64,000 bases of DNA from Phytopythium helicoides (lineage: Eukaryota > Oomycota > Peronosporomycetes > Pythiales > Pythiaceae), in the NCBI GenBank assembly GCA_024867545.1, contig JANFNE010000076.1:82501-146500 (forward strand), given 5' to 3'. The stretch's first letter is position 1. Each line of letters opens with the position of its first letter. The notes beneath the pieces were generated by a model that saw only the letters and a list, made by a program, of their open reading frames with translations, did no database searches and had not been told where the DNA came from. A program made the translations under genes and the position numbers. Shown piece by piece: positions 2,643-58,284 of the stretch.

Positions 2643-3234
2643 TGTAATGGGCCCCATGTCCATTACATGACACAATCTGGTCACAGATTGGTGTCTGTGG
2701 CAGCAGACTGGTGTGAGACACACTCACGGGAGCAATCAATGATTGCGACCGCACGGAATGCTCTCGAAGCATTCTCGAGTGCTCTCTGCACACGTGTCTC
2801 TGTGCATGAAGATGGTTCCTGCTGGATTTCTCTCTAGTGACGAAGCCGACGTGTCATTGTGGGTACATGTTCGTGGTTTCAACCAATCACAACGTGCCAC
2901 GTGGCGAGAGAGAGGTTCTTTGTTGAAGAACCCGAAGCTCAAGTTCAAGTTCAAGTTGGAGAACATTCTCCTGGTCCAAGCTTCAAGTTCAACCTGATTC
3001 AACCCAAGGTTTTATATTGCATTTGTAGGTTGATTGCATTTAACCCCATAGGACCCTAGTGGTTTTATGCTCGTAGGATTCAGGAACCATAAGCTTTTCA
3101 ATTCAGTTGCAAATTTGCCGCCTTCAACTCAAGTCTCCCTCCTCCTCCCTCCAAGTCGGGAGAGACCAAGTCTTCCTCAAGCGCAAGCGTGTGTGCCGTG
3201 TTTTGGGGACTGTCGTGGACAGCGCCCCAATACA
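2643..3234 (+). repeat. Gypsy B 5' LTR
   Basis: It is 592 bp and nearly identical to 9547-10138. A possible TATA element (TTTATATT) lies near 3010-3018. The final bases read CAATACA, where the other LTR has CATTACA, so this terminal inverted repeat is one base imperfect. Confidence 0.93.
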
Positions 3235-3236
3235 CC

Positions 3237-3254
3237 TGGTAGCACTTCGAGAGG
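3237..3254 (+). other. Gypsy B primer binding site
   Basis: TGGTAGCACTTCGAGAGG starts two bases after the 5' LTR. The TGG start is what pairs with a tRNA 3' CCA end. I cannot name the tRNA from the sequence alone. Confidence 0.6.
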
Positions 3255-3404
3255 TCCTTCCTGCGACCTTCCTAGAAGGGATTGCCGAAGTTGCGCTGAG
3301 CACTTCGTGAACCCTGCTCTAGAAGAGGATTGACAAAGAGGCTTTCGCCCTTTGTGCACTTCCTTTCAAGACTCTCCCTGTCTACTGCGCAGACAGCAGA
3401 AGGG

Positions 3405-4448
3405 ATGGAGACTCCGACGAGTGTGCTGCACGAAGACCAAGTGACGCTGACGAATGAGCATTTTCCTCATTTGTCCGGTCATGAGTGGGCAGCCCTCGAG
3501 CGGATGAGCGCAGTCATCGGTGAGGCAGCTGTGATCACACTGTTGAGATCAGCCTCTCCGGATGAGCAGCGAAGCGCGGCAGTGAGCTTCATGCACCATG
3601 AGGTCATGGACTCTCGTCGACAGCCCGCAACTCCTGTCTCGACGATGAGAGTAACGCCTCTGAAGCTCGACATCTCCCCGTATCGTGGCGGAGAGAACGA
3701 ACCTCTGGCGAGATGGTTCGTTGAGCTGGATGCAGCGGTGACTGCAAGACAGCTCCGGGACCCGACACAGCAAGTGTTGTTTGCAATGTCCAACCTTGCG
3801 GGTCGAGCGAAGAGTTGGGCGTATGGGAAGCGTTTGGCGGAGCCAACATGCTTCTACAACCTCGACGACTTCAAGCAAGAGTTGAAGCGCGCGTTCGAGC
3901 CTCCGCAGAGCGAGTTCCGTGCTCGTGCCGAGTTTCTCAAGCTTCGACAAGGACGCCAAGACCTCCACTCGTATGCACAACGCGCACGATATCTCGTGTC
4001 GTGCATAGTGGATCAGCCGATCGACATGGCAACACAAGTTGTCACATTCATGGCCGGTCTGGACGATGGACCGATCCGGAACCAACTGTTCCGCGAATAC
4101 CCAACGACGCTGGATCAAGCCATCGAGAGAGCGATGCAAGAAGAATTCAGCATCAAGCAAGCCAAGTTCGGTGGACCAGTTCCACGTCAAGTCCGCGTGA
4201 CGTCGTCGGCGAGCAATGGACCAGAGCCGATGGATCTGTCGTATGTCCAACATACCGACAACAAGCGCCCTCGCAACGATGGGAAATGTTTCCGTTGCGG
4301 GAAGCCAGGTCATATCGCTCGAAACTGCAAGATGTCCTTGCCGAATCGGCAAGAGACACAAGGATCGCGTTCGAACCAGAACAGCAACCGAAATTTCGGC
4401 CGCCGGTTCGACCGTTCCCAAGGGTCAAAAAACGGGAACGACCAGTAG
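3405..4448 (+). CDS. gag: Gypsy B Gag (capsid/nucleocapsid)
   Basis: This is the structural protein that packages the element RNA. I chose the ATG at 3405 (METPTSVLHE) because the preceding residues look like leader; an in-frame ATG at 3330 is possible. From 3405 it gives 347 residues. The middle (about residues 90-220) resembles the Retrotrans_gag capsid domain, with WFVELD, AKSWAY and the FEPPQSEFRAR...L stretch. A zinc knuckle CFRCGKPGHIARNC starts near residue 295, followed by a basic Asn/Arg/Ser-rich tail. The TAG stop at 4446-4448 lies within the stem of a frameshift signal, so a fraction of ribosomes should continue into pol. Leader and start position are inference; the family call is firm. 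Confidence 0.9.
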   Translation: METPTSVLHEDQVTLTNEHFPHLSGHEWAALERMSAVIGEAAVITLLRSASPDEQRSAAVSFMHHEVMDSRRQPATPVSTMRVTPLKLDISPYRGGENEPLARWFVELDAAVTARQLRDPTQQVLFAMSNLAGRAKSWAYGKRLAEPTCFYNLDDFKQELKRAFEPPQSEFRARAEFLKLRQGRQDLHSYAQRARYLVSCIVDQPIDMATQVVTFMAGLDDGPIRNQLFREYPTTLDQAIERAMQEEFSIKQAKFGGPVPRQVRVTSSASNGPEPMDLSYVQHTDNKRPRNDGKCFRCGKPGHIARNCKMSLPNRQETQGSRSNQNSNRNFGRRFDRSQGSKNGNDQ

Positions 4449-4467
4449 GGGCGGGGCTCCCTACTGG
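4427..4467 (+). promoter_or_regulatory. -1 ribosomal frameshift signal between gag and pol of element B
   Basis: The heptamer A AAA AAC (4427-4433) lies in the correct phase relative to gag (..TCA AAA AAC). An 8-nt spacer follows, then a perfect 9-bp stem CCAGTAGGG/CCCTACTGG (4442-4450 with 4459-4467) with an 8-nt loop. The gag stop is inside the 5' arm. Loop bases CGGGGC (4452-4457) can also pair with GCCCCG at 4512-4517, which would make a pseudoknot. Slipping back one base enters the open pol frame exactly. Confidence 0.88.
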
Positions 4468-7400
4468 GCCCGACAAGAGGACTGTGAATGTTGTGGAGAC
4501 ACAGGACTCTGGCCCCGATGTGCATGAGGCACGTGCAGTTTCCACAAGGAGTGATGGGAGTGTCAGTCAGAGCACTGCTCTGATCATGCTCAAAGTTCAT
4601 GTAGATGGTATTGAAACGCCTCTACGTGCTTTGGTTGACACTGGAGCGTCGAATAATTTTGTTCGAGCGAAAGTCGTGATCGGGAGTGACAAGACTCCTC
4701 ACGATGCGACGAAAGATATGGTTGTTCGGTTGGCCAATGGGTCGACTGTGAAGATGCCGAAGCGAACCGTGCGCTTGGCAATCGAGTTTGAAGATTTCCG
4801 AGGCGAGGACGATTTCATTCTCCTCGATCTCGATGACAAGTTTGACATCATCCTGGGCATGCCATGGTTGAAGCGTTACCAACCTCGCATTGACTGGATG
4901 AAGATGAAGATTTCCGTCGACAAGAGTGTCAACGAAGACCTGGGCTGCGTTGCAGCAGGTGAAGTGATTTGGGCGTATGCGTCTGTGGAAGATGCGTCGA
5001 ATGGGACTCAGGAGTGCGATGGCCCCTCAATCCCACAAGACAAGCCCGAGACGACTACTGGAGGTGGAGCAGTCAGGCGCCAGAAAAAGACTGTCTCCTT
5101 TGCCATTGGTGACGAGAAAGCTCGTCATGGCGTGAAGTGTGAAGATCCTTCCCAAGATATGGAGAAACCCGACGAAGAGAGTTTTCCGTCGTCAAGCATC
5201 CCTGATCAAGATGCGAGTCAAGGCGATGAAGGTGGTGACCCACAGAGAGGCATCACAAGCAGTTATGCGAACGTCGTGGTCTACGGTGAAGATGGTGACG
5301 TCGATGTGTTCCGTCACGTGAAGATTGAAAATCCTCCAAGTTCAGTCGAAGATTTGGTTTCCTTGCCCGTGATGAGCAAGAAGGCGCTTATGCGTAGCCT
5401 GGCGAAAGGCGAAATTTCGCAGCTTTGTGCGATTGTTGAGGCAATCGACGAAGACCTCGTCAACACAGCATCAAGTCTGGATGCTGAAGTGTTGCACGAG
5501 AAGACACGGAAGGAAAGGTTCGAGGAGCAGTCATGGGATGCCCTCAAGGAGAACCCCGTGTATGAGCTTGTCCGGGAGTTTGAGGACATATTCCCCGACA
5601 AGGTGCCGGACGAACTGCCGTTCGATAGAGGCATTCGTCATGAGATTGATGTACTTCCTGGCACGAAGTACTGTATCACTAGACAGTGGCCGTTGCCAAA
5701 GGAACAAGTCGATGCGATCGACGAGTTCTTTGCACAACGCGCAAAGGCTGGTCATGTGCGAGAGAGCAAGTCCCCGCACTGCAGTCCCACTTTCTGTGTG
5801 AAGAAGGCGACTGGCGGATGGCGCATCGTTCATGCTTTCAACAAGCTGAACGACGCTACCATTCCCGCTCAGACTCCGGTTCCACGCAAGGACATGATCC
5901 TTGATGGAATGGTTGGCAGCACCGTTTTCAGTGCGATCGATCTGAAGGATGGGTTCTATCAGCTTCGAATGCGCGAAAGCGATGTCCCACTAACCGCAGT
6001 GAGTACCCCGAGTGGTATGCTGTGGGAATGGTTAGTGATGCCACAAGGACTGAAGAATGCACCTGCGACTTTCAATCGCATGGTCACGAATGTTCTTCGC
6101 CCTTTGCGAACATTTGCACCAAGTTACTTTGACGATATATTCGTTCATAGTAAGGCCGTGGACGGAAGATCTGATGTTGATGTTCATCTTGGTCATCTTC
6201 GTCAAGTATTCCAGGTCATGCGTGAGAACAAGCTCTACGCAAACTTGAAAAAGTGCGTGTTCTTTGCCCCTGAGATTCCTGTTCTCGGTTGCTTTGTGGG
6301 AAAGAACGGTGTTCGAGTCGATCCGGAGAAGGTCAAAGCTATTGATGATTGGCCCGTGCCTAAGAACATCAAACAGCTACGACAGTGGTTGGGTCTGGCC
6401 AACTACTTGCACAAGTACACGCGCAATTATGCAGCGTTAGTGCAGCCTCTCACACAACTGTTGAAGAAAGACGTTGAGTGGAAGTGGTCTGACGATCACC
6501 AAGCGGCGTTCGAAGAGGTCAAGAGGAGTCTTCGTGAAGCTCCTGTGCTGGCTCTTCCGAACCACGACAAGCCGTTCCACGTCGTCTGTGATGCAAGCGG
6601 CTATGCCATCGGTTGCGCTTTGATGCAACACGATGATGAGGGCCGAGAGCGAGTAGTGTCGTATCAATCACGACAACTCCGACCCGCAGAACGGAACTAC
6701 CCAGTTCATGACAAGGAACTTCTTGCGATGAAGTATGCCTTAGTCAAGTTCCGTGTATACTTGCTTGGCGAGGAGCGCTTTGCGATCTACACAGATCATG
6801 CGTCGCTGCGAACAGCGGTAAAGACTCCTCACTTGTCCCAAAGGATGGCTAGGTGGCTCTCCTTCTTTGCGGAGTACAACTTTGTTGTGCACTACAAGCC
6901 AGGCAAGATGAACATCCTAGCCGACGCCTTGTCAAGACGTCCGGACTATGATCCCAAGTCCAAGAACGAGGATCCGGACGAAGCGTGTCGACTCTGCGAA
7001 GATGTTCAAGCGATCGCAGTTCAAGCTTCGACTTCAGTGCGCGAAGACATCATCGAGGGATACAAGTCTGACGAGACCTGTCAGGACTTGCTCAAGTATT
7101 TCAAAAATCCCTCTGACAAGGCACTGCAAGGTCTCCCAGCACGAACAAGATCGCGCGTTCACCGCTTTCGAGTACACAATGGGTTGTTGTACTACGCGGT
7201 TGAAGATGGGGATACAGAACGAGTTGTTGTTCCCAACGATGAGGGTGTGCGTCATCGACTCTTGTATGAGTATCATGACAGCCCTTCGGGTGGCCATCTC
7301 GGACGAGAGAAGACATTTCTCAGTCTTTCCCGAGATTACTACTGGCCACACATGTACAAGTGGGTTCGCAAGTATGTGAAGACCTGTGAGATCTGCCAGC

Positions 7401-9163
7401 GAGTGAAGCCTTCAGGCTCCACGCAGGCCCCACTTCGTTCATTGCCTGTCCCTCAGGACAGCTGGAGGTCCGTGAGCATGGATTTTATATTCGGACTTCC
7501 ACGAGACAAGCACCGCAGGAATGGGATCCTGGTGTTTGTGGACCGATTCAGCAAGATGGTCCATCTTGCTCCTGTTTCGGACAAGATCTCAGCCGAGAAG
7601 ACAGCCAAGGTCTTTTTGGATGTGGTATTCCGTTTGCACGGTTTGCCAACTGAGATCGTGTCAGACCGTGACACCCGCTTCACATCCAAGTTTTGGCGCG
7701 CATTGTTCAAATTGTTGGGCACCAAGCTGTCCATGTCAACAGCGGCGCACCCTGAAACGGACGGTCAAACGGAACGAGTGAATCGTGTCCTTGAAGACGT
7801 ACTGCGTAGTTACGCTACGTCATTTGGAGAGTGGAGTGAATTTCTCCCTCTCTGCGAGTTTGCGTTGAACAATTCCACGCATGTCTCGACGGGTCACTCC
7901 CCATTCTATGTGAACTACGGTCTCCATCCGAGAGTACCAGCGTCACTAGTGGGAGAGGTCTCTACCTTAAGTGGGGGAGGGACTACGGCGAATGACAATA
8001 CGCCGCAGTCAGATGATGACCTGAATGCTGCCATCGAGTTCAATGCCAATTTTGAATCGATGAAACCGTTAGATAAACTAACTGGTCGCGAGAAGCAGCT
8101 AGTCGATGACTTTGTCGTGCGGAGTCAAGCCGTTGTGAGGTTTGTTCGAGACGCAATCGCACAGGCTCAGGATCTGCAAAAGCAAAACGCAGACAAGAGT
8201 GGAAGGAAGAACAAGCAATCTTTCAAGGTCAATGATCTTGTATTGCTTAGTTCGGCGAACCTGCCTGAACATGCAGTGTCCAACCTGGGAAGTTCAAAAC
8301 TTTTGCCAAGGTTCATTGGACCGTTCACGGTGGTGAAATGCAATGGTGATGCCTACACACTAGACATCCCAACGAGCATGCGTCTGCACCCAACGTTTTA
8401 CGTGGGCAGACTAAAGCCTTACCTTCCAAGTGGGTCCGCAGACCCTAGTGAGCCTTGCGCGAGTGATCCATACGATCATGAAGTTGCTCCATTTGGTGGC
8501 GAAGAGTCTTCAACTCATCGTCTTGGAGCATCTTCTCGGCATAGAGGCGCTGAAGCACATCGAAGGACTCCTCCTTCACTGCTTCCAACGCAAGAAGGCG
8601 AGATTGGTACTCCTTACGAAGTACCTCGAGTGCAGTCCCTGCCTCCTCCACAGAGCGAAGCAGACGCTCATGGAATGCCTCTCGAGCCTTCTGAGTCTTC
8701 TGGAGTCGCTCAAGTTCGGCCTGAACTTGCTCGAACCGTTGCTCAAAACGGGACTCCAATGCCGAACGCTGGGCTGGACCATCGGACAGCGAGTCAAGTA
8801 TTGACTCCTGCTCCTTCAGCTGGTCCTCGAGGCTGTCGCACCGGTCAGCGAGAACTGCGTCGCGAACTTCCAGTGCCTCGATCTGCGCACGATGAGCACT
8901 CTTCCACTTCCAGAGCCGCTCGATCGTTTTCGCGTTCAGCCCCACCTCCTCTGATCGATCATCAGGGAGAGCATCGATGGATCGTGGAGTCGATTGTTGG
9001 TCACGAGGACCGACAGACTCGTGGGAAGAAGCGGTTGACTCGTCAACGCTTCTATCGAGTTCGGTGGCGCGGCTACCCACCGAGTTCGGACACGTGGGAA
9101 CCGAGACAGACCCTTGAGTCTGATATTCCCGACGTGGTCCGCAGCTACGAGGCAAGCTTGTAG
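4433..9163 (+). CDS. pol: Gypsy B Pol (protease, RT, RNase H, integrase, chromodomain)
   Basis: It is made as a Gag-Pol fusion by -1 frameshifting at 4427-4433, which adds about 1576 residues; the open frame extends upstream but overlaps gag. In order: aspartic protease with LVDTGAS (Asp codon 4637); reverse transcriptase with FSAIDLKDGFYQL, MPQGLKNAPATF and catalytic YFDD (6125-6136); RNase H with VVCDASGYAIG and IYTDHASL; integrase with the zinc-binding H-H-C-C region (YHDSPSGGHLG...CEICQ) and catalytic D, D, E in SMDFIFGLP, VSDRDTRF and HPETDGQTERV; a GPF-type module near 8310-8410; and a C-terminal chromodomain (about 8965-9140, RFYRVRWRGYPPSSDTWEP). The proline-rich linker before the chromodomain, about 8445-8960, is also coded on the other strand by the antisense frame 8445-9479. 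Only one RNase H is present, unlike element A. No disabling lesion was seen. Confidence 0.94.
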   Translation, partial: RERPVGAGLPTGPDKRTVNVVETQDSGPDVHEARAVSTRSDGSVSQSTALIMLKVHVDGIETPLRALVDTGASNNFVRAKVVIGSDKTPHDATKDMVVRLANGSTVKMPKRTVRLAIEFEDFRGEDDFILLDLDDKFDIILGMPWLKRYQPRIDWMKMKISVDKSVNEDLGCVAAGEVIWAYASVEDASNGTQECDGPSIPQDKPETTTGGGAVRRQKKTVSFAIGDEKARHGVKCEDPSQDMEKPDEESFPSSSIPDQDASQGDEGGDPQRGITSSYANVVVYGEDGDVDVFRHVKIENPPSSVEDLVSLPVMSKKALMRSLAKGEISQLCAIVEAIDEDLVNTASSLDAEVLHEKTRKERFEEQSWDALKENPVYELVREFEDIFPDKVPDELPFDRGIRHEIDVLPGTKYCITRQWPLPKEQVDAIDEFFAQRAKAGHVRESKSPHCSPTFCVKKATGGWRIVHAFNKLNDATIPAQTPVPRKDMILDGMVGSTVFSAIDLKDGFYQLRMRESDVPLTAVSTPSGMLWEWLVMPQGLKNAPATFNRMVTNVLRPLRTFAPSYFDDIFVHSKAVDGRSDVDVHLGHLRQVFQVMRENKLYANLKKCVFFAPEIPVLGCFVGKNGVRVDPEKVKAIDDWPVPKNIKQLRQWLGLANYLHKYTRNYAALVQPLTQLLKKDVEWKWSDDHQAAFEEVKRSLREAPVLALPNHDKPFHVVCDASGYAIGCALMQHDDEGRERVVSYQSRQLRPAERNYPVHDKELLAMKYALVKFRVYLLGEERFAIYTDHASLRTAVKTPHLSQRMARWLSFFAEYNFVVHYKPGKMNILADALSRRPDYDPKSKNEDPDEACRLCEDVQAIAVQASTSVREDIIEGYKSDETCQDLLKYFKNPSDKALQGLPARTRSRVHRFRVHNGLLYYAVEDGDTERVVVPNDEGVRHRLLYEYHDSPSGGHLGREKTFLSLSRDYYWPHMYKWVRKYVKTCEICQRVKPSGSTQAPLRSLPVPQDSWRSVSMDFIFGLPRDKHRRNGILVFVDRFSKMVHLAPVSDKISAEKTAKVFLDVVFRLHGLPTEIVSDRDTRFTSKFWRALFKLLGTKLSMSTAAHPETDGQTERVNRVLEDVLRSYATSFGEWSEFLPLCEFALNNSTHVSTGHSPFYVNYGLHPRVPASLVGEVSTLSGGGTTANDNTPQSDDDLNAAIEFNANFESMKPLDKLTGREKQLVDDFVVRSQAVVRFVRDAIAQAQDLQKQNADKSGRKNKQSFKVNDLVLLSSANLPEHAVSNLGSSKLLPRFIGPFTVVKCNGDAYTLDIPTSMRLHPTFYVGRLKPYLPSGSADPSEPCASDPYDHEVAPFGGEESSTHRLGASSRHRGAEAHRRTPPSLLPTQEGEIGTPYEVPRVQSLPPPQSEADAHGMPLEPSESSGVAQVRPELARTVAQNGTPMPNAGLDHRTASQVLTPAPSAGPRGCRTGQRELRRELPVPRSAHDEHSSTSRAARSFSRSAPPPLIDHQGEHRWIVESIVGHEDRQTRGKKRLTRQRFYRVRWRGYPPSSDTWEPRQTLESDIPDVVRSYEASL

Positions 9164-9479
9164 CGTCGCTGGAGACGCTACCGCGACGAAGGCCATGGGC
9201 TGCCTTGTCGTGACTTGGAGTCTTGCTGAGCAAGCGCTCCATCTTGCCCTCGTTCTCAAGGCGAACAAAGGCTCGCCAAGAGTCTGCCTTGGCTGTGATA
9301 GGTTGGTCCGGATCATCGCGGTTGTTGATCCGACGCCAACGGAAGAACCGCTCCTTATAGTACTCTGTGTCTCCCACCCGACGGCGGATGGAAGTCACAT
9401 CGAAGAGTTCTGGAGCCCGGCGCTGATGCTTGCGCACTGCGGGTTCTTCGAGAGATGCTTGGTCACTTGATCGCTTCAT
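8445..9479 (-). CDS. Antisense accessory ORF of gypsy B: chromodomain-like plus coiled-coil protein
   Basis: The 344-residue frame starts at a true ATG (9479-9477, MKRSSDQASLEE). Residues about 25-85 look like a chromodomain: FDVTSIRRRVG, then EYYKERFFRWRR (the place of the YLVKWKGY strand), then ADSWRAF (the place of TWEP). A Ser/Pro-rich linker follows. From about residue 185 to the end there is a long heptad-patterned coiled coil (EALEVRDAVLADR, LEDQLKEQES, FEQVQAELERLQK, LRHQMEQLHDRM). The last 240 codons overlap the pol linker and chromodomain on the opposite strand in a shifted phase; the chromodomain-like part (about 9220-9405) lies downstream of the pol stop and is not shared. It would be expressed from an antisense promoter near the 3' LTR. 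A chance frame is possible, but its organised composition argues for a real protein. Confidence 0.6.
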   Translation of the reverse strand: MKRSSDQASLEEPAVRKHQRRAPELFDVTSIRRRVGDTEYYKERFFRWRRINNRDDPDQPITAKADSWRAFVRLENEGKMERLLSKTPSHDKAAHGLRRGSVSSDATSLPRSCGPRREYQTQGSVSVPTCPNSVGSRATELDRSVDESTASSHESVGPRDQQSTPRSIDALPDDRSEEVGLNAKTIERLWKWKSAHRAQIEALEVRDAVLADRCDSLEDQLKEQESILDSLSDGPAQRSALESRFEQRFEQVQAELERLQKTQKAREAFHERLLRSVEEAGTALEVLRKEYQSRLLALEAVKEESFDVLQRLYAEKMLQDDELKTLRHQMEQLHDRMDHSRKAH

Positions 9480-9531
9480 AGCGGTTTCGAAAGTGAGTCA
9501 AGCACCCCAAAGAGAGCGAGTGGTCGCTACT

Positions 9532-9546
9532 TTAAGGGGGGGATGA
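9532..9546 (+). other. Gypsy B polypurine tract
   Basis: AAGGGGGGGATGA directly precedes the 3' LTR at 9547. A purine run at this place primes plus-strand DNA synthesis in LTR elements. Confidence 0.75.
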
Positions 9547-10138
9547 TGTAATGGGCCCCATGTCCATTACATGACACAATCTGGTCACAGATTGGTGTCT
9601 GTGGCAGCAGACTGGTGTGAGACACACTCACGGGAGCAATCAATGATTGCGACCGCACGGAATGCTCTCGAAGCATTCTCGAGTGCTCTCTGCACACGTG
9701 TCTCTGTGCATGAAGATGGTTCCTGCTGGATTTCTCTCTAGTGACGAAGCCGACGTGTCATTGTGGGTACATGTTCGTGGTTTCAACCAATCACAACGTG
9801 CCACGTGGCGAGAGAGAGGTTCTTTGTTGAAGAACCCGAAGCTCAAGTTCAAGTTCAAGTTGGAGAACATTCTCCTGGTCCAAGCTTCAAGTTCAACCTG
9901 ATTCAACCCAAGGTTTTATATTGCATTTGTAGGTTGATTGCATTTAACCCCATAGGACCCTAGTGGTTTTATGCTCGTAGGATTCAGGAACCATAAGCTT
10001 TTCAATTCAGTTGCAAATTTGCCGCCTTCAACTCAAGTCTCCCTCCTCCTCCCTCCAAGTCGGGAGAGACCAAGTCTTCCTCAAGCGCAAGCGTGTGTGC
10101 CGTGTTTTGGGGACTGTCGTGGACAGCGCCCCATTACA
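9547..10138 (+). repeat. Gypsy B 3' LTR
   Basis: It is 592 bp and ends CCCATTACA, a perfect inverted match to the TGTAATGGG start. The target duplication CCACA follows at 10139-10143. Confidence 0.93.
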
Positions 10139-10163: not shown

Positions 10164-13138
10164 ATGGCTTCTGGTGGCCCTCCGCCGCAGCGCGCTCAGG
10201 ACGAGGTGCGCCATGGGGTGTTCTACCCGCGCGCAACGTGGTTCCGTCGTCTGACGCTTCGTTGTTGCTCTACAGCCTCCTGAGCGGCTAACACTGGCCG
10301 AATACTCGGGCCGGTTGCTCGCGCAGCCGGGCGGCGTCGGCGCAGATTCCGCCGACGTCGGGCGCGCGATGACCTCGTTCCCTGGGGCTCGGCGCCCCGA
10401 CTCCGTCATCTCTTCCGCGCTCTTCCACCACGTGGTTGAGCGCGCTGAAGCGCAGGTCGCCCCGGTAATTGGGGCGGCGCTAGCCCATTCCTGCCGTGAT
10501 GTCCTCACGGTCAGCCAGGCGAACGCCTGCTTAGGCTCGACAGATTTCCGCAGCCTGTACCGGGTTGTGAAGGACGCCTTCAAGCCCGGTGAGGTCACGT
10601 CGCTTGCTGACATTGACCGGATGGAGACCAGCGAGCTGAAAAAGCTCGTTGGTGACCTGCGGGAGCAGTCGGCGGTCCAGCAGCGCCGGATTTCCGCCCT
10701 CGAAGTCCAGCTGAAGACCGCGGACTCCGACAACAAGCTGCTCTCCGCCAAGGTGGTGTCGCTCAACAGTAAGCTGACGGCCTCTCGAGCCTCCGAAGCA
10801 ACTTCCGCTGCTCAGTGTGAGCACTTCTCGAGGCTGTCGGAGTCACACGAGAGACTGCACACTCGTTACCAGGCCGAGTTGGACGCGCAACAGGCCACCA
10901 TCGCGACTCTCGGCCAGCAGCTCCGCAATGTACAAGAGTATGCGGCTCGGAAAGCGGCAGAATGCATCCAGCTTCAGCTCGCTGCTGCAAATGGTGACTC
11001 GCACAAGCTCCGGCTGGCGGAATCCCAGCTCCAACGTGCTCGAGTCAAGCTGGCAAGCGTTCGACGACCTGTTATACCGCTTCCCCAAGGCAACCGACCC
11101 AGCGGAACTCGCGGTAAGTTGTCTTTCGTTGCTGATTTCATGAATTCCGCTGGGCTGGTTCTCACTTGTAGCTTTACAGCTCCATCCGCACCTGCGCCAT
11201 CGGATCCGTCCCCGGCCGATGAGCATTCCTCGGGCTGCTCGGCCACTGAGAGCTATCCTTCGGACAGCGATGACCAGATTCCTCGTCCATCACGCAGTTC
11301 CGCCAGACAGAAGCGTCTCGTTGGCGGCCGAGTGCGTTCTGCCGCCAGTCGTAAGTCGACCGACGCAAGTTCAGCGGCCGATAAGCAACCAATTTCTCGG
11401 TCAACCAAGTCTCGTGCCGCTTCTGAAGCCTCCGCTGGTTCCTCTAGTGAAGATGTACGTATTTCTGTTGCTGAATCCTGCCTGAAGTGCCTCGTTTCAC
11501 CTTGCGGCGTTGATTCCTTCACAGATTCCGGTTGGGAAACTCAGCGGAAAACCTCCTGCGGCTCGCAACAAGTCATCTACCCGTTCTCCAGTGGAAAACT
11601 CGCCTGGAGAAGGCAATTCCGCTGGTGATATCGGTGGTTCTGCACAAATCTCTGCCCGAGCGCCGGCTGAAAAGCGGACTACAGCGTCCAATGCTTCGAC
11701 TTCTGCGGCTAGCAAGAGCTCGGTTGCTAATTCTGCTGTTGCAAGCAGTCCCCGCACAGGTTCTGCCGGTGCTGCTGGCCCTCGTCGCAAGTCTCATGAC
11801 GATGCGATTCGGATCGCGCAGCTTGAGCTGGCGGATACACAGTCGTCTGCTCCTTCTCAACCAGCGAGTACTCCCAAGAAGACCTCCGCTGCTAAAGGCA
11901 AGAAGAAGCGTGCGGCGCCAGCGGAAATGCCAAGTTCACCGGCTGCTCGCAAGAAGTCTCGCGCTTCTTCAGCTTCCTCCGTTGGCAATGAGGTCGTGCA
12001 GACTCCTCCTACTGCTCCGGTGGTTTCCGCCAAGAAGAAAGGGAAGGCTCCAGCGAAGAGCAAGACCTCTGACACGCCAAGCTCGTCAAGTCGCCAGCGG
12101 AAAACTTCCACCGCCACCTCAAAGAGCTCTTCTACTACGGGGAGAGCACCGGCTGGTGCTTCCCAAGCTTCCGCTAGTCCGCACGTGGTGTCTGCTTCTA
12201 CTGGTGGTACTGGTTCAGCTCCCGGTGCCACTGCACCAGCGACCGTGATGCTTTCTAGTGGAGATACACTGGTGACCGCGGGCTTTGAGGTGGCCGATCG
12301 GCCTACGCTTAATCTTTGGCCCAAACCCCAGCCAGCTGACAAGAGGACTCTCACAGGTGATGCCATCATCACTGTGTTGCGTGGGCTGAACTTCCGTACC
12401 ACTGCTGGCAGGCACTACTGGAACGACGTGCGTCTGTATCGGACCTTCGAAGAGGAGAACGACACCGCCACTTTGGCTTCAGTTGTGCCAATTTCCGCCA
12501 GTTCGTTCTAGTCGTTCCTTTCAGCCAAGCCATGCGAAGCGCTCCAAGCTCTGCAGCTTCTGCACCCACTGTTCTTCAATACTACTCAGACTGATCTCGA
12601 GACGCTTGCTCGACAGTGGCATCGGCTACGGAATCAAGAATTCCAAGCATTCTGGGAACGAGATTTCTGGATTCCACAGGCTGCGGTCGCCAAGTATCTC
12701 CGCCAGCATCCCAATCCCCAGCTGGCGAGTAAATGGAGGGCGTACGTCAGCCAGCGGAAAGCTCGGGCTGACTCGCTCCGTTTCCACTACGGACGGTTCT
12801 TGTACGAGGCGCACTCCTTGCTGGCGGAAGAAAAGTTGGATCTTCGTGCTTTGGTTGATCCTTCTCTTCCCTTCTACAGCGCGTCTCCGCTGTTGTGGAC
12901 CCCGAAATCGACGGACTGGTTGGCGGAACTGCACGACAAGTACGTGGACGATCCATTCCGCTGCTCCTGGATGACCGCGCGGAATATCCATCCCTTCCAG
13001 ACTGTTTTCCGCCCAGCTGTGGGCTTGAGCCACGCGCCTAATCTTCTCGCTTTGCCTACCGTTGGGCGACCGGGACCTGCTCCTCGACCATCCTCCCGAG
13101 GTGCTGCCGGCGGTGATGGAGTCACCGCTGAGATTTGA
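10164..13138 (+). CDS. Antisense accessory gene of gypsy A, spliced, with one in-frame TAG
   Basis: It runs opposite to gag-pol, tail to tail with pol (90 bp apart). The model 10164-10205, 10276-11113, 11180-11454, 11525-13138 removes three introns of 70, 66 and 70 nt with GT-AG ends (donors GTGCGC, GTAAGT, GTACGT; acceptors CTACAG, TTACAG, TCACAG). It joins one frame of 923 codons. The only defect is a TAG at 12509-12511; reading continues cleanly to a TGA at 13136-13138. The protein has a folded-looking N-terminus (LTLAEYSGRLLAQPGG), a long coiled coil (about residues 120-280, KKLVGDLREQSAVQQRRISALE), a Ser/Ala/Lys-rich disordered middle with basic patches (KGKKKRAAP) and a C-terminal region (about 12250-13090) that is also found in gypsy C. 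No known family is recognised. Start and first intron are the least certain parts. Confidence 0.68.
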
Positions 13139-13228: not shown

Positions 13229-16200
13229 TTATTCTTCATCTGCAACTTGCACCACCTGGAGTCGGTTGTCTCGCTTCCGCTGGAGGAGGTAGTCGTACAA
13301 GACACCTCCACACGCTAAATTCGAAAGCGGTTCCCACGTTGGGTCCTCGTACCCCTTCCATTTGACCAAGAATTCGCGATGTTGGCGACCGCTTCGGGTC
13401 GACATCGGCAGCCGATCGTCCAGAATTGCTTCAACTTCAAATTCTCCATCTCTACGAGCTCGTTCCCAACTGTCTTCAGGTAGCAACTCCTCATCAAAGT
13501 CAAGTCGGCCAGTTTCAGCCAGTCCATCTATCAGCGGAACGGTGGGTCTCTCTGGATAGTCTCGGTACAATTTCAGCCGGCTAATGTGAACGACCGGGTG
13601 AAACCTATACCCGCTCTTGTTCGGGAGCTCCAACTCGAAAGCAAACGCATCCACCCGCCGCAGAATTTTGAAAGGACCATGCCACAAGTGGGCCAGCTTC
13701 TTGACCAAACCTGGTCGAACTCTCGCCATATACAGCCACACCAGCCGACCTTCTGCGAAAGCAGAGTGATCCGGCTCGCCGTTTTCCGCCGGAATTTCAG
13801 CCTCGGTGAGCTGTGCATTGTGCACTTCCGCTCGCCGTGCTTTCTCTTTGGCTTGGTACTGTTTGGCTAAGATCAGTGCTACTCCGTGCTGTCGACATAT
13901 CTCTCGCCTCCATTTCGCTGCATCTGATTGATCACCTCGGCCTTTGAACAGAGATAGCATCGCACCAATTGTGTTCTTGGGATCCCAGCCATGCACCAAG
14001 AAGAATGGTGTGTCCTTCCGAGTTGCGTCCATCGACGTGTTGATTGCAAACACCACCTTCTCAGCAATATCATCCCAGTCTCGCTGTAGCGGATCTTCCG
14101 CATAGATGCGAACCGTTTTGATCACTGATTGCACAGATCGTTCTTGCTGTCCGTTCGCTTGCGGTCGATAGCTCAGCGTTGCTCGAGCCTGCGCCCCCAG
14201 CATGTCTCTAAAGTGGCTGAAAACCTCGCCAATGAATCTTCCATCTCTGTCTGACCGAATCATGCTTGGGGCTCCGAACTGAAGGAACACTTTCTCCTCA
14301 AATGCCTTCGCTACAGCTAACGCCCCTGAGTCTCTCATAGGCTTAGCGATTACATATCCTGTGAATGAACATTGGAAGAGCAGAAGAGAAGTGTTTCCGC
14401 GGCTGGTTTCAGGCAGCGGAATCACAAAATCCATCGACACGAGCTGGAACGGTCGTTCCGCTAGGATGTTGCCAGGGGAATAGCCACTCAACTGTGGTGT
14501 TCCTTTGCTTGAGCTGCAATCAGCGCACCCTCTCACGTGATCAACGACATCTCGGTATAACCCCACCCAATAATACTCCTGTCGAACGCGATGGTACGTT
14601 CGAGTGATTCCTTGGTGTCCGCCTTCATAGCTCTCATGACACGTCTGAAGGATTTCAGGTATCAGGGTAGTCGGGACAACGAGTTTCAGCTCGGGCGTAG
14701 GGTCTTCCTCTACTGACCATTTCCTCCCTTTGTCAAGGTAATGTAGCAACTGTTTGTCATCCACGACAAATCTGTCGGCCAGTTTTGAGCAGTCTTTCGC
14801 TTCACGATAGCTCAGCTCGCTGATGTTGCCCAGCAGGTATTTCTTGAGCAGATTCCACCTTGATTCCTCATCTTGTGCTGCTGCAATGCGTTTCAGTCGC
14901 TCGTCTAGCGCATGCCGCAGTGTTTCCGCTGACTCTGCCGGCGTCAAGCTGTTGTGCTGCTCTTCTGCTGGTTGCTCCTGAGGGTCAGACCTGCTTCCTT
15001 CTTGCTCGTCTGGTGCTTCCGCTGGCGGCGGATGACTCTTTGACACTTCCTTTGCCTTTACCACCGGCTTGGGCGGTGCCTTCTCGACAGATTCACTATA
15101 CTGGTGGTTCCGTCCATCATTTCCGCTGATCCGTGATTTGCTCCTAGTCACTGCCGCGACGCTTCCAGACGGTTGTTCGACTTCCGCCGGTCCGTCTCGT
15201 TGCTGAGGTTGTGCCACCACGTCCTCCGCTGGTAGTTCAGCTCCATTGGGCTTCTCGGCATGCTCTTCCGCTACCACTTCATCGCCTTCGTCAGCGTATA
15301 ACTCCTTATGCGCACTATTGAGTGCTTTCAGTCCATCTTTTCGCTGCTCACTGACGATTTCCCACCCGGTCTGCGTAGTTAGCGCTTCAGTAGCCAGCGA
15401 GTCTGCCGCTGAATTGAACGAGCGAGCTACATGTCGATAGCGTACTCGTTTTAGCTGCGCTACTAGCAGTTTGTGCTCTTGCAGGTGGATTTTGAGCGAG
15501 TCTTTGTGGCAAGCGATGACACCCATGGCCTGCTGGATTGCCAGCCGTGAGTCACCCACGATGACGAGCTCCTGGATTCCTCTTGATACGCACTCTTTGA
15601 CTCCTCGGTTCATGCCGATATACTCTGCTTCGTTCACAGTTGCGCCGTCGAGGTGAGCGGAAGCAGCAAATTCAATCTCCCACTCGGGCAGTTTCCAGAT
15701 GATCCAGGACGACGCCCCTGTTCCGCCACTCTTCTCAGGCTTTGCCGACCCGTCGAACGTCAGCACGTATCCATCGTACGACCGTGGAAGTCGAGCATAC
15801 ATCAGCTGCGGGTCAATAGGAACAGGTGTGGCCGAACTCTTAGGCGGAGCAAATTCCGCTAGCGATTCTTCCAGCGATATGAACGGTGTAATCGATGCAT
15901 GGACCAGCTGAACGAACTTGGTGTCTTTCTCCTTCACCCGCTTGACCGTCAGGCTCCACGGGGACAACATCACTGCAAACTGGACTGTTCGTCCAAAGAG
16001 ATTCTTCGACTTGTACACCCATTCCAGCGTGGAGAATCGCGTGTACACCGTGATCGGTCGTCCAGCGAGCTGTCCGTAGCAGACTTTCAGCACCCGAAGC
16101 AGTGCTAGCACCTCCCTTTCCGCTGGGTGGTATCTCGTCTCTGCGTCATTCAACACGCGACCACAGAACCGCACGGGGTGTAAAACCCCATCGTGCATCT

Positions 16201-17431
16201 GCATAACAGTTCCGCTGAGCGCCCAATTGTTCGCAAACACCATTATATGGACGTCCAGGTCTGGTTGGAAGTGCTTCAGCACGGGTGCGGCGGCAGCTTT
16301 TGCCTTGAGCATTTCGAAAGCCGCTCGGGCTGGTCCCAGTCGCTCTTCTGACAGGAAATCCTCGTCATTCAGCTGGTAGAGTGCCGCTCCGTAGACTGCC
16401 AAGTCCTGGATGAACCGGTTGTAGTAGTTCAACGCCCCCAGGAATGCTTGAACGCCCCTTTTTGTGGAGGGGAATGGCAGGTCTTTCAGCTGTCCCAGCT
16501 TCTTCTTGTCGGCGGACAGACCATTTCCGCTGACCTTGTGTGACAGGAAGTCGACTTCGTTCTTGCAGAATAAGCTCTTGGTGAAGCTCACACTGATCCT
16601 GCACTCTTCGAACCTGGCAAGTAGCATCTCTAAAATGTCCAGACACTCTTCCGCTGTCTGCGCGCCGAAACAAATGTCGTCCACGAATGATCTTCTACCA
16701 AACACTGGTACCAACACCGAGTCTTCAGGAGCTCCTTCGCTGAAAATGTCGTTAGCTACTCCGCTCACTGGCTCGTTTCCTTCAGCGGAGTTTTCCGCTT
16801 GAGCAACTCGTTGCGCTCGTTCGGCCCAGCCTTCCTCTGGCTTTACAAAGCCCCACAGTGCATTATCAATCATCCGTTGGTATATCATCGGCGCATTCTT
16901 CAGCCCGAATGGCATCCGCAGCCATTCGAAGTGTCCGAGGGGACAGACAAACGCCGATATCAGTCTCGCACGTGCAGACATGACGATAGCCCAGAATCCG
17001 CTCGCTGCATCTAGCGAGCAGAACCACAAATAGCTGTGCAACTCCGTGAGTAGGTCGTCCACGAGTGGCATAGCATACTCCAGGATCTTTGTGATTGCAT
17101 TGACCATCTTGTAGTCGATGCACAACCTGATGTCTACCTTGTTCTTCTTCATGACGATCACAATAGGAGATGCCCACTCGCTACTTGAGAACGCGATTAG
17201 CCCAGCACTCAGCAATCCTTTCAGCAGTTCATACAACTTCTTCATGTGCTTCAGCGGAATCCTGCGTGACTTCTGCTTGATCGGAGCATGATCCCCCACA
17301 TCGATATCGCACACCACACCATAAGCTGGCGGTGGAAGCGCATTTCCGCTGGAAATTAAGATTGCTTTGTGCTTCTCAAGACAGCTTACCAACCGCGCTT
17401 GTTGCTCTGTGGTTAGCTCAACATTGACCAC
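13229..17431 (-). CDS. pol: Gypsy A Pol (RT, two RNase H domains, integrase, chromodomain)
   Basis: About 1400 residues. The frame opens without an ATG, and its upstream end overlaps the protease frame by roughly 30 nt in the -1 phase, so a frameshift fusion is likely although no canonical heptamer is seen. Domains: RT with FCSLDAASGFWAI, MPFGLKNAPMIYQR and catalytic FVDD, with an extra acidic stretch of about 50 residues between the last two; a Ty3-type RNase H whose first catalytic Asp appears replaced (VFANNWAL); a second, complete type-I RNase H (LTFDGSAK, NEAEYIG, VGDSRLA, AADSLA); a Pro/Glu-rich linker; integrase with H-H-C-C (TCHESYEGGHQG...CADC) and D, D, E in SMDFVIPLP, RSDRDGRF and PQANGQQER; and a C-terminal chromodomain (REFLVKWKGYEDPTWEP). 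Dual RNase H gypsy elements are known from the plant Tat lineage and from oomycetes. No inactivating lesion was seen. Confidence 0.93.
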   Translation of the reverse strand: MVNVELTTEQQARLVSCLEKHKAILISSGNALPPPAYGVVCDIDVGDHAPIKQKSRRIPLKHMKKLYELLKGLLSAGLIAFSSSEWASPIVIVMKKNKVDIRLCIDYKMVNAITKILEYAMPLVDDLLTELHSYLWFCSLDAASGFWAIVMSARARLISAFVCPLGHFEWLRMPFGLKNAPMIYQRMIDNALWGFVKPEEGWAERAQRVAQAENSAEGNEPVSGVANDIFSEGAPEDSVLVPVFGRRSFVDDICFGAQTAEECLDILEMLLARFEECRISVSFTKSLFCKNEVDFLSHKVSGNGLSADKKKLGQLKDLPFPSTKRGVQAFLGALNYYNRFIQDLAVYGAALYQLNDEDFLSEERLGPARAAFEMLKAKAAAAPVLKHFQPDLDVHIMVFANNWALSGTVMQMHDGVLHPVRFCGRVLNDAETRYHPAEREVLALLRVLKVCYGQLAGRPITVYTRFSTLEWVYKSKNLFGRTVQFAVMLSPWSLTVKRVKEKDTKFVQLVHASITPFISLEESLAEFAPPKSSATPVPIDPQLMYARLPRSYDGYVLTFDGSAKPEKSGGTGASSWIIWKLPEWEIEFAASAHLDGATVNEAEYIGMNRGVKECVSRGIQELVIVGDSRLAIQQAMGVIACHKDSLKIHLQEHKLLVAQLKRVRYRHVARSFNSAADSLATEALTTQTGWEIVSEQRKDGLKALNSAHKELYADEGDEVVAEEHAEKPNGAELPAEDVVAQPQQRDGPAEVEQPSGSVAAVTRSKSRISGNDGRNHQYSESVEKAPPKPVVKAKEVSKSHPPPAEAPDEQEGSRSDPQEQPAEEQHNSLTPAESAETLRHALDERLKRIAAAQDEESRWNLLKKYLLGNISELSYREAKDCSKLADRFVVDDKQLLHYLDKGRKWSVEEDPTPELKLVVPTTLIPEILQTCHESYEGGHQGITRTYHRVRQEYYWVGLYRDVVDHVRGCADCSSSKGTPQLSGYSPGNILAERPFQLVSMDFVIPLPETSRGNTSLLLFQCSFTGYVIAKPMRDSGALAVAKAFEEKVFLQFGAPSMIRSDRDGRFIGEVFSHFRDMLGAQARATLSYRPQANGQQERSVQSVIKTVRIYAEDPLQRDWDDIAEKVVFAINTSMDATRKDTPFFLVHGWDPKNTIGAMLSLFKGRGDQSDAAKWRREICRQHGVALILAKQYQAKEKARRAEVHNAQLTEAEIPAENGEPDHSAFAEGRLVWLYMARVRPGLVKKLAHLWHGPFKILRRVDAFAFELELPNKSGYRFHPVVHISRLKLYRDYPERPTVPLIDGLAETGRLDFDEELLPEDSWERARRDGEFEVEAILDDRLPMSTRSGRQHREFLVKWKGYEDPTWEPLSNLACGGVLYDYLLQRKRDNRLQVVQVADEE

Positions 17432-17472: not shown

Positions 17473-18822
17473 CTACCTCGGGGAGGAACGGGTGAACGTA
17501 TCACCTGGCTCTTTATCACAGGGCATTTCGTCGCCGGCTGCTGCAGCTGCAGATGCGTATGCCGATTCGAGCTCGCTGAGGCGGTCTTCCACTCGCCACC
17601 GCTCTCTCGCTTGGGCAGAGTCCGGTTCTTCCTCATCTTCCGCTGAAGACTCTGTTGCTCCGCCAGGTGAGCTCACGGCACAAGCAGCAACGCAGATCGG
17701 TTCCGCTGGATCTCGCAGCTCCGTCAGAGCGCTTCCAGTTTCCGCTGGAGCCGTTGGCCTTTCCAGAATCGCCTTTGGCCACGGATACTCGGGCTTTGGG
17801 ACGATTGGCGGCTGCTTAGCAAGCCATTGCTCGTAGATTTCCTTTTCCACATGATATAGCTGCTTGACTTTCGCAGCTGAATAAGCGAGCACCTGCCAAT
17901 CGACGTACTTCGGTGAGTGGACTCGAACGTATCCTTCTTGTTGGGGCATCCGCCCCCGCGGAATCCACACAGCCATTTCCGCCCGCAGTGGACAGCACAC
18001 TCCACTGTCGGTGACGTTCGTTAGCCTCACACTTTTCACCCGCCCTGACCTAGCGGAAATAACCGTAGGCACGAGCTTCTCCGTGCGCTTTACCCAAAGC
18101 TCATGAGTTGCCGTTCCAGGCTGATTCTTTGGTGCTCGGTAGTCTTTAAAGCCTCGTGGCTCAATAGTCAACAGCTCTGTCGGCACACACAGAACCTCTT
18201 CTCCTGTCTCGGGCTCTTCGGCTGCATTCGCCGATTTCACGAGCGGAATCACCACTTCATCCGGCAATTTCGCCTTCAGGTTGTACATGTCGAGCCGCAC
18301 ACCGGCTGGAATCATGAAGTCCGTCCCAAGGACCACATCCACTCCTGCGTTGTGATCCATCACCCACAGATCATACACGTACACCGTGTTCCATCCGAGG
18401 GTAATCTTTACCAGGACGCGTCCCCCAGCGACGCCGCTCTTATCGTTGATTCCTTGCACGGTGATGACCTTGTTCCTCCTCATTGCTTTAGACAAGTTGA
18501 GTCTTTCCGCTAGCTTTTTGCTGATCATGCTGACATTTGCTCCTGTATCTAGCAGGATCTTCATCCGTGTGTCGTCCACCGCGCCATTCACCAACGCTCT
18601 CATCCTGATCCGTTTGTCGAACCGCTTTGAGGCCCACCATCCTCGGCGTTCTCCGTCCTTCAGCTCAAGGACCCGCTCCATCTGGAGCATCTGTGCCGCG
18701 TCCGCGTCGTCCTCACTCATTTGACGGCTGGATGCAGCTTCATACCGATTGGTCGGGACTTCCGCTGTCGAATCCCACCACCTTACTCTCTTCCTTCTAA
18801 CATCTTGCTCACCGGTCTCCAT
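17473..18822 (-). CDS. pro: Gypsy A protease ORF
   Basis: The 449-residue frame starts at an ATG (18822-18820); an in-frame TGA lies three codons upstream, so it is truly separate from gag. The aspartic protease core is ILLDTGANVSMISKKLAERL with the later flap/hydrophobic part DVVLGTDFMIPAGVRLD. A long C-terminal extension (PRGRMPQQEGY, VDWQVLAYSAAK, then an acidic Ser/Glu-rich tail) has recognisable counterparts in decayed gypsy C, so it belongs to the family. It lies about 140 nt after the gag stop and slightly overlaps the pol frame. How ribosomes reach it is not visible; reinitiation or splicing are possibilities. Confidence 0.85.
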   Translation of the reverse strand: METGEQDVRRKRVRWWDSTAEVPTNRYEAASSRQMSEDDADAAQMLQMERVLELKDGERRGWWASKRFDKRIRMRALVNGAVDDTRMKILLDTGANVSMISKKLAERLNLSKAMRRNKVITVQGINDKSGVAGGRVLVKITLGWNTVYVYDLWVMDHNAGVDVVLGTDFMIPAGVRLDMYNLKAKLPDEVVIPLVKSANAAEEPETGEEVLCVPTELLTIEPRGFKDYRAPKNQPGTATHELWVKRTEKLVPTVISARSGRVKSVRLTNVTDSGVCCPLRAEMAVWIPRGRMPQQEGYVRVHSPKYVDWQVLAYSAAKVKQLYHVEKEIYEQWLAKQPPIVPKPEYPWPKAILERPTAPAETGSALTELRDPAEPICVAACAVSSPGGATESSAEDEEEPDSAQARERWRVEDRLSELESAYASAAAAAGDEMPCDKEPGDTFTRSSPR

Positions 18823-18962: not shown

Positions 18963-21206
18963 CTAGTTTAAAGACTCGTGGATCTCCTTGATGTCGTCGG
19001 GAAGGGTGTTGGGGTCGAATTTGGTTCCGACAAACTTGATCAGTCGCTCGAGATGCTTGTTCTTCTCACACTGCCCTGCTGGGTGAACCTGCAGGCACAT
19101 TTTGCAGCGCTGGAAGCAGCGATGGGTTGGGTGACCGATTTTTCCGCACGCTCCACATGTTGTTTGGCTCCAGTCCTCTCGCGGCTCGCGGTTGCGAGGC
19201 GGGTATTGAGGATAGCCCATGCGGCGTCCGTCCGGTACTTGATGCCGCCCCTGGTATGAAGGTGGCTGCCTGGTGGCCTCCTGTTCAGCGGAATCGACGA
19301 AGTATCCGTCCGAATCGTACTCGTCGTCATCAGCTCGTCGATCATCGTGGTCCCAGTGGTCCCAGTAGCTTCCGTCGTCGTATTCATCATCGTAGTAAGT
19401 CTGCACTCGGCGACCACGGTCTGGAACGCGATTCGCACTGGCTGAAACGCGATTTCCGCTGGAAGTTCGGCGCATTGTTAGCGCGTCGATCAACTCACTC
19501 TCTGTTGCTTCCGCCAGACTGATTCTTGGCGGGTTTCGAGCCTCGTCGCGGCGGCGTTCATTGTCTCGTTCTGGTCTACGGCGCCCCATTGAGCTCCGGG
19601 CCTTCTTCCGCTCCTCACCGCGTAATTTCTCTTGGATCATCCGCTCGAGATCGTCAATTCGAGCGATTCCGAGCGGATAAAAGCGATCCATGAGCTCGTC
19701 GTCTCCGCACGTCATGAGAAACTGGCGGACATGTTCCGCTCCTCCGTCGGACGAGCTGATGCGGATCTTCGCTGCCTTAGCGTATCCGTTCAGCCGAAGC
19801 AGGTAATCGAGAACGTGCTCGTTCGTCCGACGAGCAGCCTGGTAGTATCTGGCTGCTGGAGTCTGTCTGGCGTTTTTGCAGTAGTACTCGAGGAACGCCT
19901 CGCACAGCAACGTCCACTTCCTCTTTGTCTTCGGCGATAGCTGGCGGAACCAGTCGAGAGCTCCTTTCCGCAGCCGCAATTCGAACGTGTCGACCCACTG
20001 ATCTTGCGGCCGCTTCGACCCTTTCATAGCGTAGACGAACATCTTCAGCCACTGCGTGGCTTCCTCTCCGCGGTCACGATCGCCATAGAATAACGCGATC
20101 GTATCCAACGGAATATGCGTTTGTATCTGGATTGTCTGCGCTGTTCCCGCTCCTGGGTGAGCTGAAAAGGCTTCTCGCACTTCCTGAAAAGGATCTTCGC
20201 GGTCTCCATCGATGCTCTCCATCTCAACGTCTTCCTTGTCCACTTCCGCCTTGAAAGGCAGCTGAAACGGCGTTTTCCCTCGCTTCTTCTCTTCAAACTC
20301 GTCATATTCATCTTCATCTGAGAAGGTAAGCGTCTTCCTTGCAGGTTTCTTGGCGGAATTTTTTGCTACGGTGGATGGAGTCTTCTGTTGGTCGGTCCCA
20401 GGCATCCGGGACGGGTGCGCGGACTTCCCACTCGGTGGGGGAATTCCGCTGGGTCCCGACATCTCGCTCCAGCCAAGTTCTTCGACGATTCGCCGCTTCC
20501 ACTCCTTCACTTGTTCTCGGACCTCCATGAAGTCGTACTTGGCGAGCGTTTCGACGTCGGGACGAGCGTTGCACCGTATCCCCAGCGACAGGAGCAGTTT
20601 CTCCGTCTGGAGAGCGAGCAGACTGATATTTTCCACCGTCAGTGGCTCCCACAAGGTTTCCCAGGCAGCGACCCACGACGGCTTAACGACATATTCGGGA
20701 TCGAATAGTCCCATCCACCGCGCACTCCTCATCTGCTTCGCCAAGCGGAACATCGTCTTTTCCGCTGCTGGCGAGTTCTTCGGCTTCGACTCGGTCGCAA
20801 GCGACAATTCAGCCAGACGGACGTCGACAGGTGGGTCCGACGGGGAATTCGCACCAGCGGAAACTCTTCCAGAGGCAGAACCACCTCCAGTTGCGCGTGC
20901 TGGCGCCCCCGGGACGCTCCTAGCACCGCCTGCAGCCCTTCCGCTGCTCACCAACACTTCTTCTTCGTCTTGGTCACTCTCCTCCAGCTCCTCTCGCACT
21001 TCTTCAGCTGCTGACTTCTCCTCGAACAGGTCCGGAGTGACCTGCTCGGCGAATTCCGCCAGCTCTTCGTCTTCATCCCGCGCAGTCGTCACCGCACGAG
21101 CTGCCGACTTGGCTGAAGTCGCACGCGAGTAGCTCTTCACCATCCTCTCCTCTTCACTCGTAAGTTGCTTGCTGAACCTGTTCGCACGACAACGCAATCC
21201 GGGCAT
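18963..21206 (-). CDS. gag: Gypsy A Gag
   Basis: About 747 residues from the ATG at 21206, which lies inside the primer binding site; the next ATG (MVKSYSRATSAK, 21143) is an equally good start. An acidic, Ser/Ala-rich N-terminal half (EELEESDQDEEEV) is followed by a Retrotrans_gag-like capsid region (ATQWLKMFVYAM, LRKGALDWFRQL, LCEAFLEYYCKNA, YLLRLNGYAKAAKI). An Arg/Asp/Tyr-rich stretch then leads to two zinc knuckles near the C-terminus: CGACGKIGHPTHRC (CX2CX4HX4C) and CKMCLQVHPAGQC (CX2CX3HX4C). The frame ends with TAG at 18963-18965. Gypsy C encodes a diverged relative. Confidence 0.88.
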   Translation of the reverse strand: MPGLRCRANRFSKQLTSEEERMVKSYSRATSAKSAARAVTTARDEDEELAEFAEQVTPDLFEEKSAAEEVREELEESDQDEEEVLVSSGRAAGGARSVPGAPARATGGGSASGRVSAGANSPSDPPVDVRLAELSLATESKPKNSPAAEKTMFRLAKQMRSARWMGLFDPEYVVKPSWVAAWETLWEPLTVENISLLALQTEKLLLSLGIRCNARPDVETLAKYDFMEVREQVKEWKRRIVEELGWSEMSGPSGIPPPSGKSAHPSRMPGTDQQKTPSTVAKNSAKKPARKTLTFSDEDEYDEFEEKKRGKTPFQLPFKAEVDKEDVEMESIDGDREDPFQEVREAFSAHPGAGTAQTIQIQTHIPLDTIALFYGDRDRGEEATQWLKMFVYAMKGSKRPQDQWVDTFELRLRKGALDWFRQLSPKTKRKWTLLCEAFLEYYCKNARQTPAARYYQAARRTNEHVLDYLLRLNGYAKAAKIRISSSDGGAEHVRQFLMTCGDDELMDRFYPLGIARIDDLERMIQEKLRGEERKKARSSMGRRRPERDNERRRDEARNPPRISLAEATESELIDALTMRRTSSGNRVSASANRVPDRGRRVQTYYDDEYDDGSYWDHWDHDDRRADDDEYDSDGYFVDSAEQEATRQPPSYQGRHQVPDGRRMGYPQYPPRNREPREDWSQTTCGACGKIGHPTHRCFQRCKMCLQVHPAGQCEKNKHLERLIKFVGTKFDPNTLPDDIKEIHESLN

Positions 21207-21214
21207 GCGCACCA
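21201..21214 (-). other. Gypsy A primer binding site
   Basis: On the minus strand TGGTGCGCATGCCC starts two bases inside the 5' LTR, as expected for pairing with a tRNA 3' CCA end. It contains the first in-frame ATG of gag. The tRNA was not identified. Confidence 0.6.
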
Positions 21215-21216
21215 GT

Positions 21217-22233: not shown

Positions 22234-22237
22234 TAAT

Positions 22238-36579: not shown

Positions 36580-36586
36580 GGGGGCG

Positions 36587-39798: not shown

Positions 39799-39805
39799 CG
39801 CCCCC

Positions 39806-43843: not shown

Positions 43844-43847
43844 AACC

Positions 43848-46396: not shown

Positions 46397-46403
46397 CGCC
46401 CCC

Positions 46404-50441: not shown

Positions 50442-50445
50442 AACC

Positions 50446-58280: not shown

Positions 58281-58284
58281 AACC

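Follow-up and report, generated by a model that had tools for sequence, protein, structure and literature searches.

The host element and its surroundings

The window, a stretch of 64,000 nucleotides of Phytopythium helicoides DNA, corresponds to positions 82501-146500 of contig C75; this and similar labels denote contigs of the genome, which comprises 49 Mb in 100 contigs. It contains a large Ty3/gypsy element on the minus strand, about 13.2 kb long when a nested element is excluded. The LTRs of the large element are 98.9% identical and have TAAT on both sides: the 3' LTR occupies positions 1517-2529 (TAAT at 1513-1516) and the 5' LTR positions 21217-22233 (TAAT at 22234-22237). The gag, protease and pol frames are also on the minus strand. 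The gag frame (18963-21347) has a start that overlaps the 5' LTR and a Retrotrans_gag match below 21215. It is followed by the protease frame (17473-18822) and by the pol frame (13229-17431), in which Pfam finds a reverse transcriptase (RT), an RNase H (RT_RNaseH, 390-490 of pol), a second RNase H (RVT_3, 560-683), an integrase (Integrase_H2C2, 919-976) and a chromodomain (Chromo, 1331-1375). The dual RNase H precedes the integrase, and the chromodomain, which follows the integrase as the last domain of pol, scores above the cut-off (E 3.5e-8). The Ty3/gypsy elements named Chronos, found in oomycetes, have the same order (Ustyantsev et al. 2017, PMC5348765): their RT is followed by the native RNase H, a second one, the integrase and the chromodomain. 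Judged by its domain order, dual RNase H and chromodomain, the large element is of the Chronos type.

A second gypsy element, on the plus strand (2643-10138) and flanked by CCACA at either end, lies nested in the large element, outside the antisense gene described below. It ends 25 bp 5' of the ATG of that gene. A CCAAT motif on the plus strand (2552-2556) is a candidate promoter element of the antisense gene. In six other copies the motif is situated 112 bp 5' of the ATG, its position being the same in all of them; in the window, the nested element separates the ATG from the motif and from the conserved upstream region.

Several other elements lie in the window. At 25003-25948, outside the large element, an inverted LTR-like sequence is 96% identical to the LTR of that element over about 760 bp and is possibly a solo LTR. 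A 344-codon fragment of another dual-RNase-H pol (RT_RNaseH and RVT_3) is located at 59781-60815. Four 4.8-kb copia-type elements with RVT_2 and copia gag (32170-36956, 39432-44214, 46026-50812 and 53869-58651) have LTRs of about 370 bp and a mutual identity of 97-98%, one of them being inverted relative to the other three. DNA transposons are found beside these LTR elements, with a DDE_3 transposase frame at 52745-53818 and a Tc5-type HTH frame at 711-1526.

Structure of the antisense gene

The antisense gene is located on the plus strand, opposite gag-pol, between pol and the 3' LTR. It converges with pol, and the stop codons of the two genes are about 90 bp apart. Exon 1 (10164-10205) has 14 codons and starts with the ATG at 10164, which is present in all seven copies compared below. 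Intron 1 (10206-10275) is 70 nt long in all seven. It is followed by exon 2 (10276-11113), a probable coiled coil; by intron 2 (11114-11179), which has 66 nt, or 65 in two copies; and by exon 3 (11180-11454), which is Ser/Ala-rich and looks disordered. Intron 3 (11455-11524) has 70 nt in the window and 69 in the other six copies. Exon 4 (11525-13138) carries a basic region and, according to the alignment and structure model, a C-terminal helical domain, and ends with the terminal TGA (13136-13138).

When spliced, the window copy has 923 codons, counting the terminal stop, and an internal TAG in exon 4 (12509-12511, codon 714) that is found in only one of the seven copies. The earlier note had described three GT-AG introns of 70, 66 and 70 nt and a 923-codon frame with a single TAG, and these coordinates, lengths and frame are confirmed. 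All three introns begin with GT and end with AG on the plus strand, the orientation that it had claimed. It had further held that the removal of 11455-11524 links two frames that otherwise end. In the unspliced plus strand one frame is indeed open over 10255-11625 and another over 11486-12508, and the two are joined because this intron is removed. In codons 15-45, which follow intron 1, there are 1, 1 and 9 variable columns at codon positions 1, 2 and 3, respectively. The scarcity of changes at the first two positions indicates that coding begins 5' of the first methionine of exon 2.

Copies of the gene and coding constraint

A search of the genome found 11 matches to the C-terminal piece and 13 to exon 2. 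The gene was compared along its full length in seven copies of the TE1 type, one of them that of the window; a C21 remnant with extensive deletions and a short piece on C42 were set aside. The seven are separate insertions, each judged from one flank. GT and AG are retained at all three introns in every copy. An intact protein of 978 residues is encoded by four of them (C47, C1, C28 and C49), and in those on C1 and C28 splicing is needed before the long frames meet. The remaining three are broken: the window copy by its TAG, that on C25 by a small frameshifting deletion and that on C35 by an insertion of 1156 nt in exon 2. Across the five copies tested, the proposed frame contains one or two stops, including the terminal one, and each of the other five frames contains 13-56. 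Alignment of four of the six other copies with the window places single-nucleotide indels in introns 2 and 3, and the exon indels in two intact copies measure 168, 3 and 3 nt.

The divergence between the window and the four intact copies is 0.17, 0.14-0.15 and 0.31-0.32 at the first, second and third codon positions, respectively. The corresponding dN/dS ratio is 0.298-0.299 for the gene and 0.145-0.163 for codons 1-294, against 0.07-0.14 in the 720-815 codons of pol that were sampled, showing that the antisense protein is constrained, less so than pol. The closest pair, C1 and C28, with 24 changes in all, has a dN/dS of 0.485 for the gene as a whole and of 1.8 for its middle region. The antisense frame is a genuine spliced protein gene and not a product of chance. 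Comparison of further family copies and of dN/dS in the antisense frame had been suggested in the earlier note, and both speak for the gene, with four of seven copies intact and a ratio of 0.30.

The hypervariable block

An identity scan delimits a hypervariable block at 11341-13138 of the plus strand, which ends at the antisense stop codon. The window and C25 copies differ at 380 of 1797 sites within the block, compared with 60 of 1428 in the neighbouring sequence, and the shift in their identity coincides with the stop codon. The p values for the block are descriptive, because its limits were picked after viewing the scan. Silent sites show the same pattern: between the window and C47, dS is 0.24 in the N-terminal part of the gene, 0.87 in the C-terminal part and 0.23 in pol. 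Between C47 and C28, 117 of 599 sites differ in 10891-11490 and 29 of 1346 in 11491-12840. The identity dips at different places in different pairs, which fits recombination among diverged versions of the gene. The middle and C-terminal parts apparently constitute a hypervariable, recombined block between conserved flanks.

The antisense protein

The protein had been predicted in the earlier note to consist of a coiled coil, a basic disordered middle and a conserved C-terminal domain. As to the coiled coil, exon 2 matches coiled-coil families in Pfam, all of them below threshold. The basic middle is evident in the composition of the two intact copies examined, in which residues 561-700 have a net charge of +16 and runs of K/R. 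The C-terminal domain is real and is common to 24 aligned sequences, with W51, P160 and R193 invariant in all 24, yet it is hypervariable between near-identical copies.

Two models of the C-terminal domain, both derived from the same 24 sequences, predict a helical structure with a mean pLDDT of 75 and 81. A structure search with these models gave no convincing solved fold and none pointing to a function. A search of the region, as proposed earlier, found family matches in the same genome, and no Pfam family scored over the cut-off. No homologue of the TE3 and TE1 C-terminal domains was found in a large protein database. PF04195 (TRP28) is absent among the Pfam matches of the antisense protein up to E 0.05, or 0.1 in one search.

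Distribution among the elements of the genome

A search with the domain of one gene on C68 gave 57 matches genome-wide. When these were paired with RVT_3 over a range of 2.0-4.5 kb, the C-terminal domain was found 2.5-3.4 kb downstream of 30 of the 51 RVT_3 RNase H matches, on the opposite strand, and never on the same strand. The antisense position is fixed in 30 of 30 paired elements, which, together with the conserved introns and the constrained frame, bears out the earlier proposal that this gypsy family carries an antisense accessory protein. Among 139 RT matches, drawn from the 150 best candidates, 26 have a domain on the opposite strand 3.0-5.5 kb downstream and none has one upstream; three same-strand RT pairs use domain matches already paired with another RT.

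The other 21 RVT_3 matches have no partner, the C21 remnant and TE2-type places on C36 and C28 being among them. In one TE2 copy (L081, C36:411000-412500) pol is open over 1959 codons, and a deletion has removed most of the antisense gene; read in part, the copy matches the other C36 copy (L039) on either side of the deletion. The unpaired matches and this copy suggest that the antisense gene may be dispensable in cis.

In the RT tree, which covers elements of this genome and includes just four alignable RTs of other elements (five of 17 sources were dropped), nine antisense-bearing elements lie on one side of a branch with a support of 94/99. The groups TE1+TE2 and TE3+C48 are recovered in both the RT and the antisense trees. 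The RT tree groups the TE4 rows (83/83), but in the antisense tree one of them has no clear placement. The N-terminal similarity between TE1 and TE2 is marginal (E 0.019). The antisense gene probably predates the split of TE1/TE2, TE3 and TE4 and has been inherited with pol since.

Cellular relatives

An RVT_3 partner is lacking for 27 of the 57 domain matches. Twenty of these are clustered, eight on C57, seven on C90 and five on C68, and none of the 139 RT matches lies closer to them than 81 kb. The other seven are scattered, and one of them (C57:1205062) is of the TE3 type. The domain of the window copy matches C68:1155367 with an E value of 1.7e-6, and the C68 domain matches TE1 copies with a best E value of 1.5e-7; the C-terminal domain is homologous to the cellular genes on C57, C90 and C68. 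Public sequence collections contain four relatives, for which no Pfam family scores over the cut-off. At the level of sequence, the antisense gene family also exists as clustered cellular genes.

The mirror-image clusters are situated at C57:495-518 kb and C90:1156-1178 kb, and GAPDH pairs are found on the same two contigs, suggesting that the assembly retains two haplotypes. On C16, triosephosphate isomerase (TIM) and the GAPDH C-terminal domain are both contained in one 644-codon open frame; a TIM-GAPDH fusion is typical of stramenopiles and, taken with the Chronos-type elements, suggests an oomycete.

The cellular clusters might represent a domesticated Chronos antisense gene, with the element as source and the host as recipient. 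This is possible but rather unlikely, and would be compatible with a regulatory role of the protein. The tree of 29 domain rows, rooted at the midpoint only, needs two changes between element and cellular positions (one is also compatible), in line with such a transfer. A stretch of 125 nt within the C68 cluster region (C68:1161288-1161412) shares 90% identity with a TE2 copy, so that element DNA is not absent there, and stops occur inside the match at three places (C68:1129062, C57:497657 and C16:140234). However, the clusters are sizeable, with those on C57 and C90 mirroring each other in gene order, three pairs of cellular copies have dN/dS of 0.33-0.36, and several cellular copies have the same protein layout in a single long frame, whereas TE1 has three introns.

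It is also conceivable, though improbable, that Chronos long ago captured a host nuclear gene in antisense, which became a self-encoded counter to the very host family from which it derives. If this were so, the contest would be visible as clusters of cellular genes set against a hypervariable, recombining cassette, bounded by the stop codon, in otherwise near-identical elements.

Proposed function and comparison with known systems

With somewhat better than even confidence, the gene can be read as coding in antisense for a nuclear regulator, which would have been acquired once from a cellular gene family or later given to it. A promoter of its own, next to the 3' LTR, would drive transcription of the gene in the direction of pol, and its mRNA would be spliced. 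The sense RNA would be the mobile RNA, in which the antisense introns are backwards and stay unspliced. As follows from the replication of LTR retrotransposons, the introns would for this reason survive retrotransposition. The protein might re-enter the nucleus and oligomerise via its coiled coil, whereupon the C-terminal domain would act on the chromatin or transcription of the element, or the protein would compete with its cellular relatives. We infer the own promoter, spliced mRNA, nuclear return and action on chromatin from the layout of the element and from plant precedents (PMC7264820, PMC11963269).

The place of the gene, after pol and before the 3' LTR, corresponds to that of env, and the protein might instead act in the particle or at entry or exit, in an env-like manner or in RNA packaging. 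The antisense orientation, the basic K/R runs and the cellular gene relatives argue against this, and we consider it doubtful. Equally doubtful is a passenger, a captured gene that brings the element no benefit. The TE2 copy whose pol is still open without the gene, and the three broken copies among seven in TE1, would agree with a passenger; constraint between copies and a fixed place in the 30 paired elements, which span at least three subfamilies, would not. The antisense transcript could matter rather than the protein, since convergent transcription would give double-stranded RNA limiting the element. Such a role has been discussed for plant elements (PMC7264820) and would suit the short distance between the converging stop codons, but RNA alone would not maintain a 978-codon frame, the splice sites and a dN/dS of 0.30, making this quite improbable. 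Open frames are common in the GC-rich coding regions of this genome, yet their chance origin beside splice-like sites can practically be dismissed, as the antisense stretch is situated past the pol frame, the other five frames are crowded with stops in the copies tested, and intron conservation, constraint and RVT_3 pairing across elements all contradict it.

A regulator coded in antisense has partial counterparts among other elements. Both plant elements and the Botrytis element Boty have antisense ORFs located between pol and the 3' LTR (PMC7264820). Those of the plant Retand and other Tat elements (TRP28/PF04195) likewise combine this position with a dual RNase H and a suspected nuclear role (PMC11963269, PMC7264820). 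For the plant ORFs, no similar sequences outside transposons are described, and their origin and function are given as not known (PMC7264820). Unlike the Tat/Retand ORFs, the gene described here lacks PF04195, contains three introns, has cellular relatives and belongs to an element with a chromodomain. The earlier note had supposed it to be independent of the plant ORFs, in keeping with the missing PF04195 match and with the description of Chronos as just distantly related to Tat (PMC5348765). Boty of Botrytis cinerea, likened here by description, provides an antisense ORF in the same position outside plants (PMC7264820). The main text of the Chronos paper describes ORF1 and ORF2 and does not contain the word "antisense" (PMC5348765).

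A literature search found no report of such an antisense gene in oomycete elements. HBZ of HTLV-1 is encoded by an antisense gene near the 3' LTR and is a coiled-coil protein and a regulator. The parallel with HBZ, drawn by description, is one of working only, the function here being predicted. PMC11963269 notes that HTLV has antisense genes.

What appears to be new is a separate group of elements with an antisense gene that bears introns, is under constraint and has cellular relatives. It is also evident from the backward introns that these elements transpose via their sense RNA, with a further gene borne on the opposite strand. Since cellular relatives exist, the question of origin can be tested by comparing element and cellular genes across oomycetes, and the cellular family offers a route to learning what the protein of the element does.
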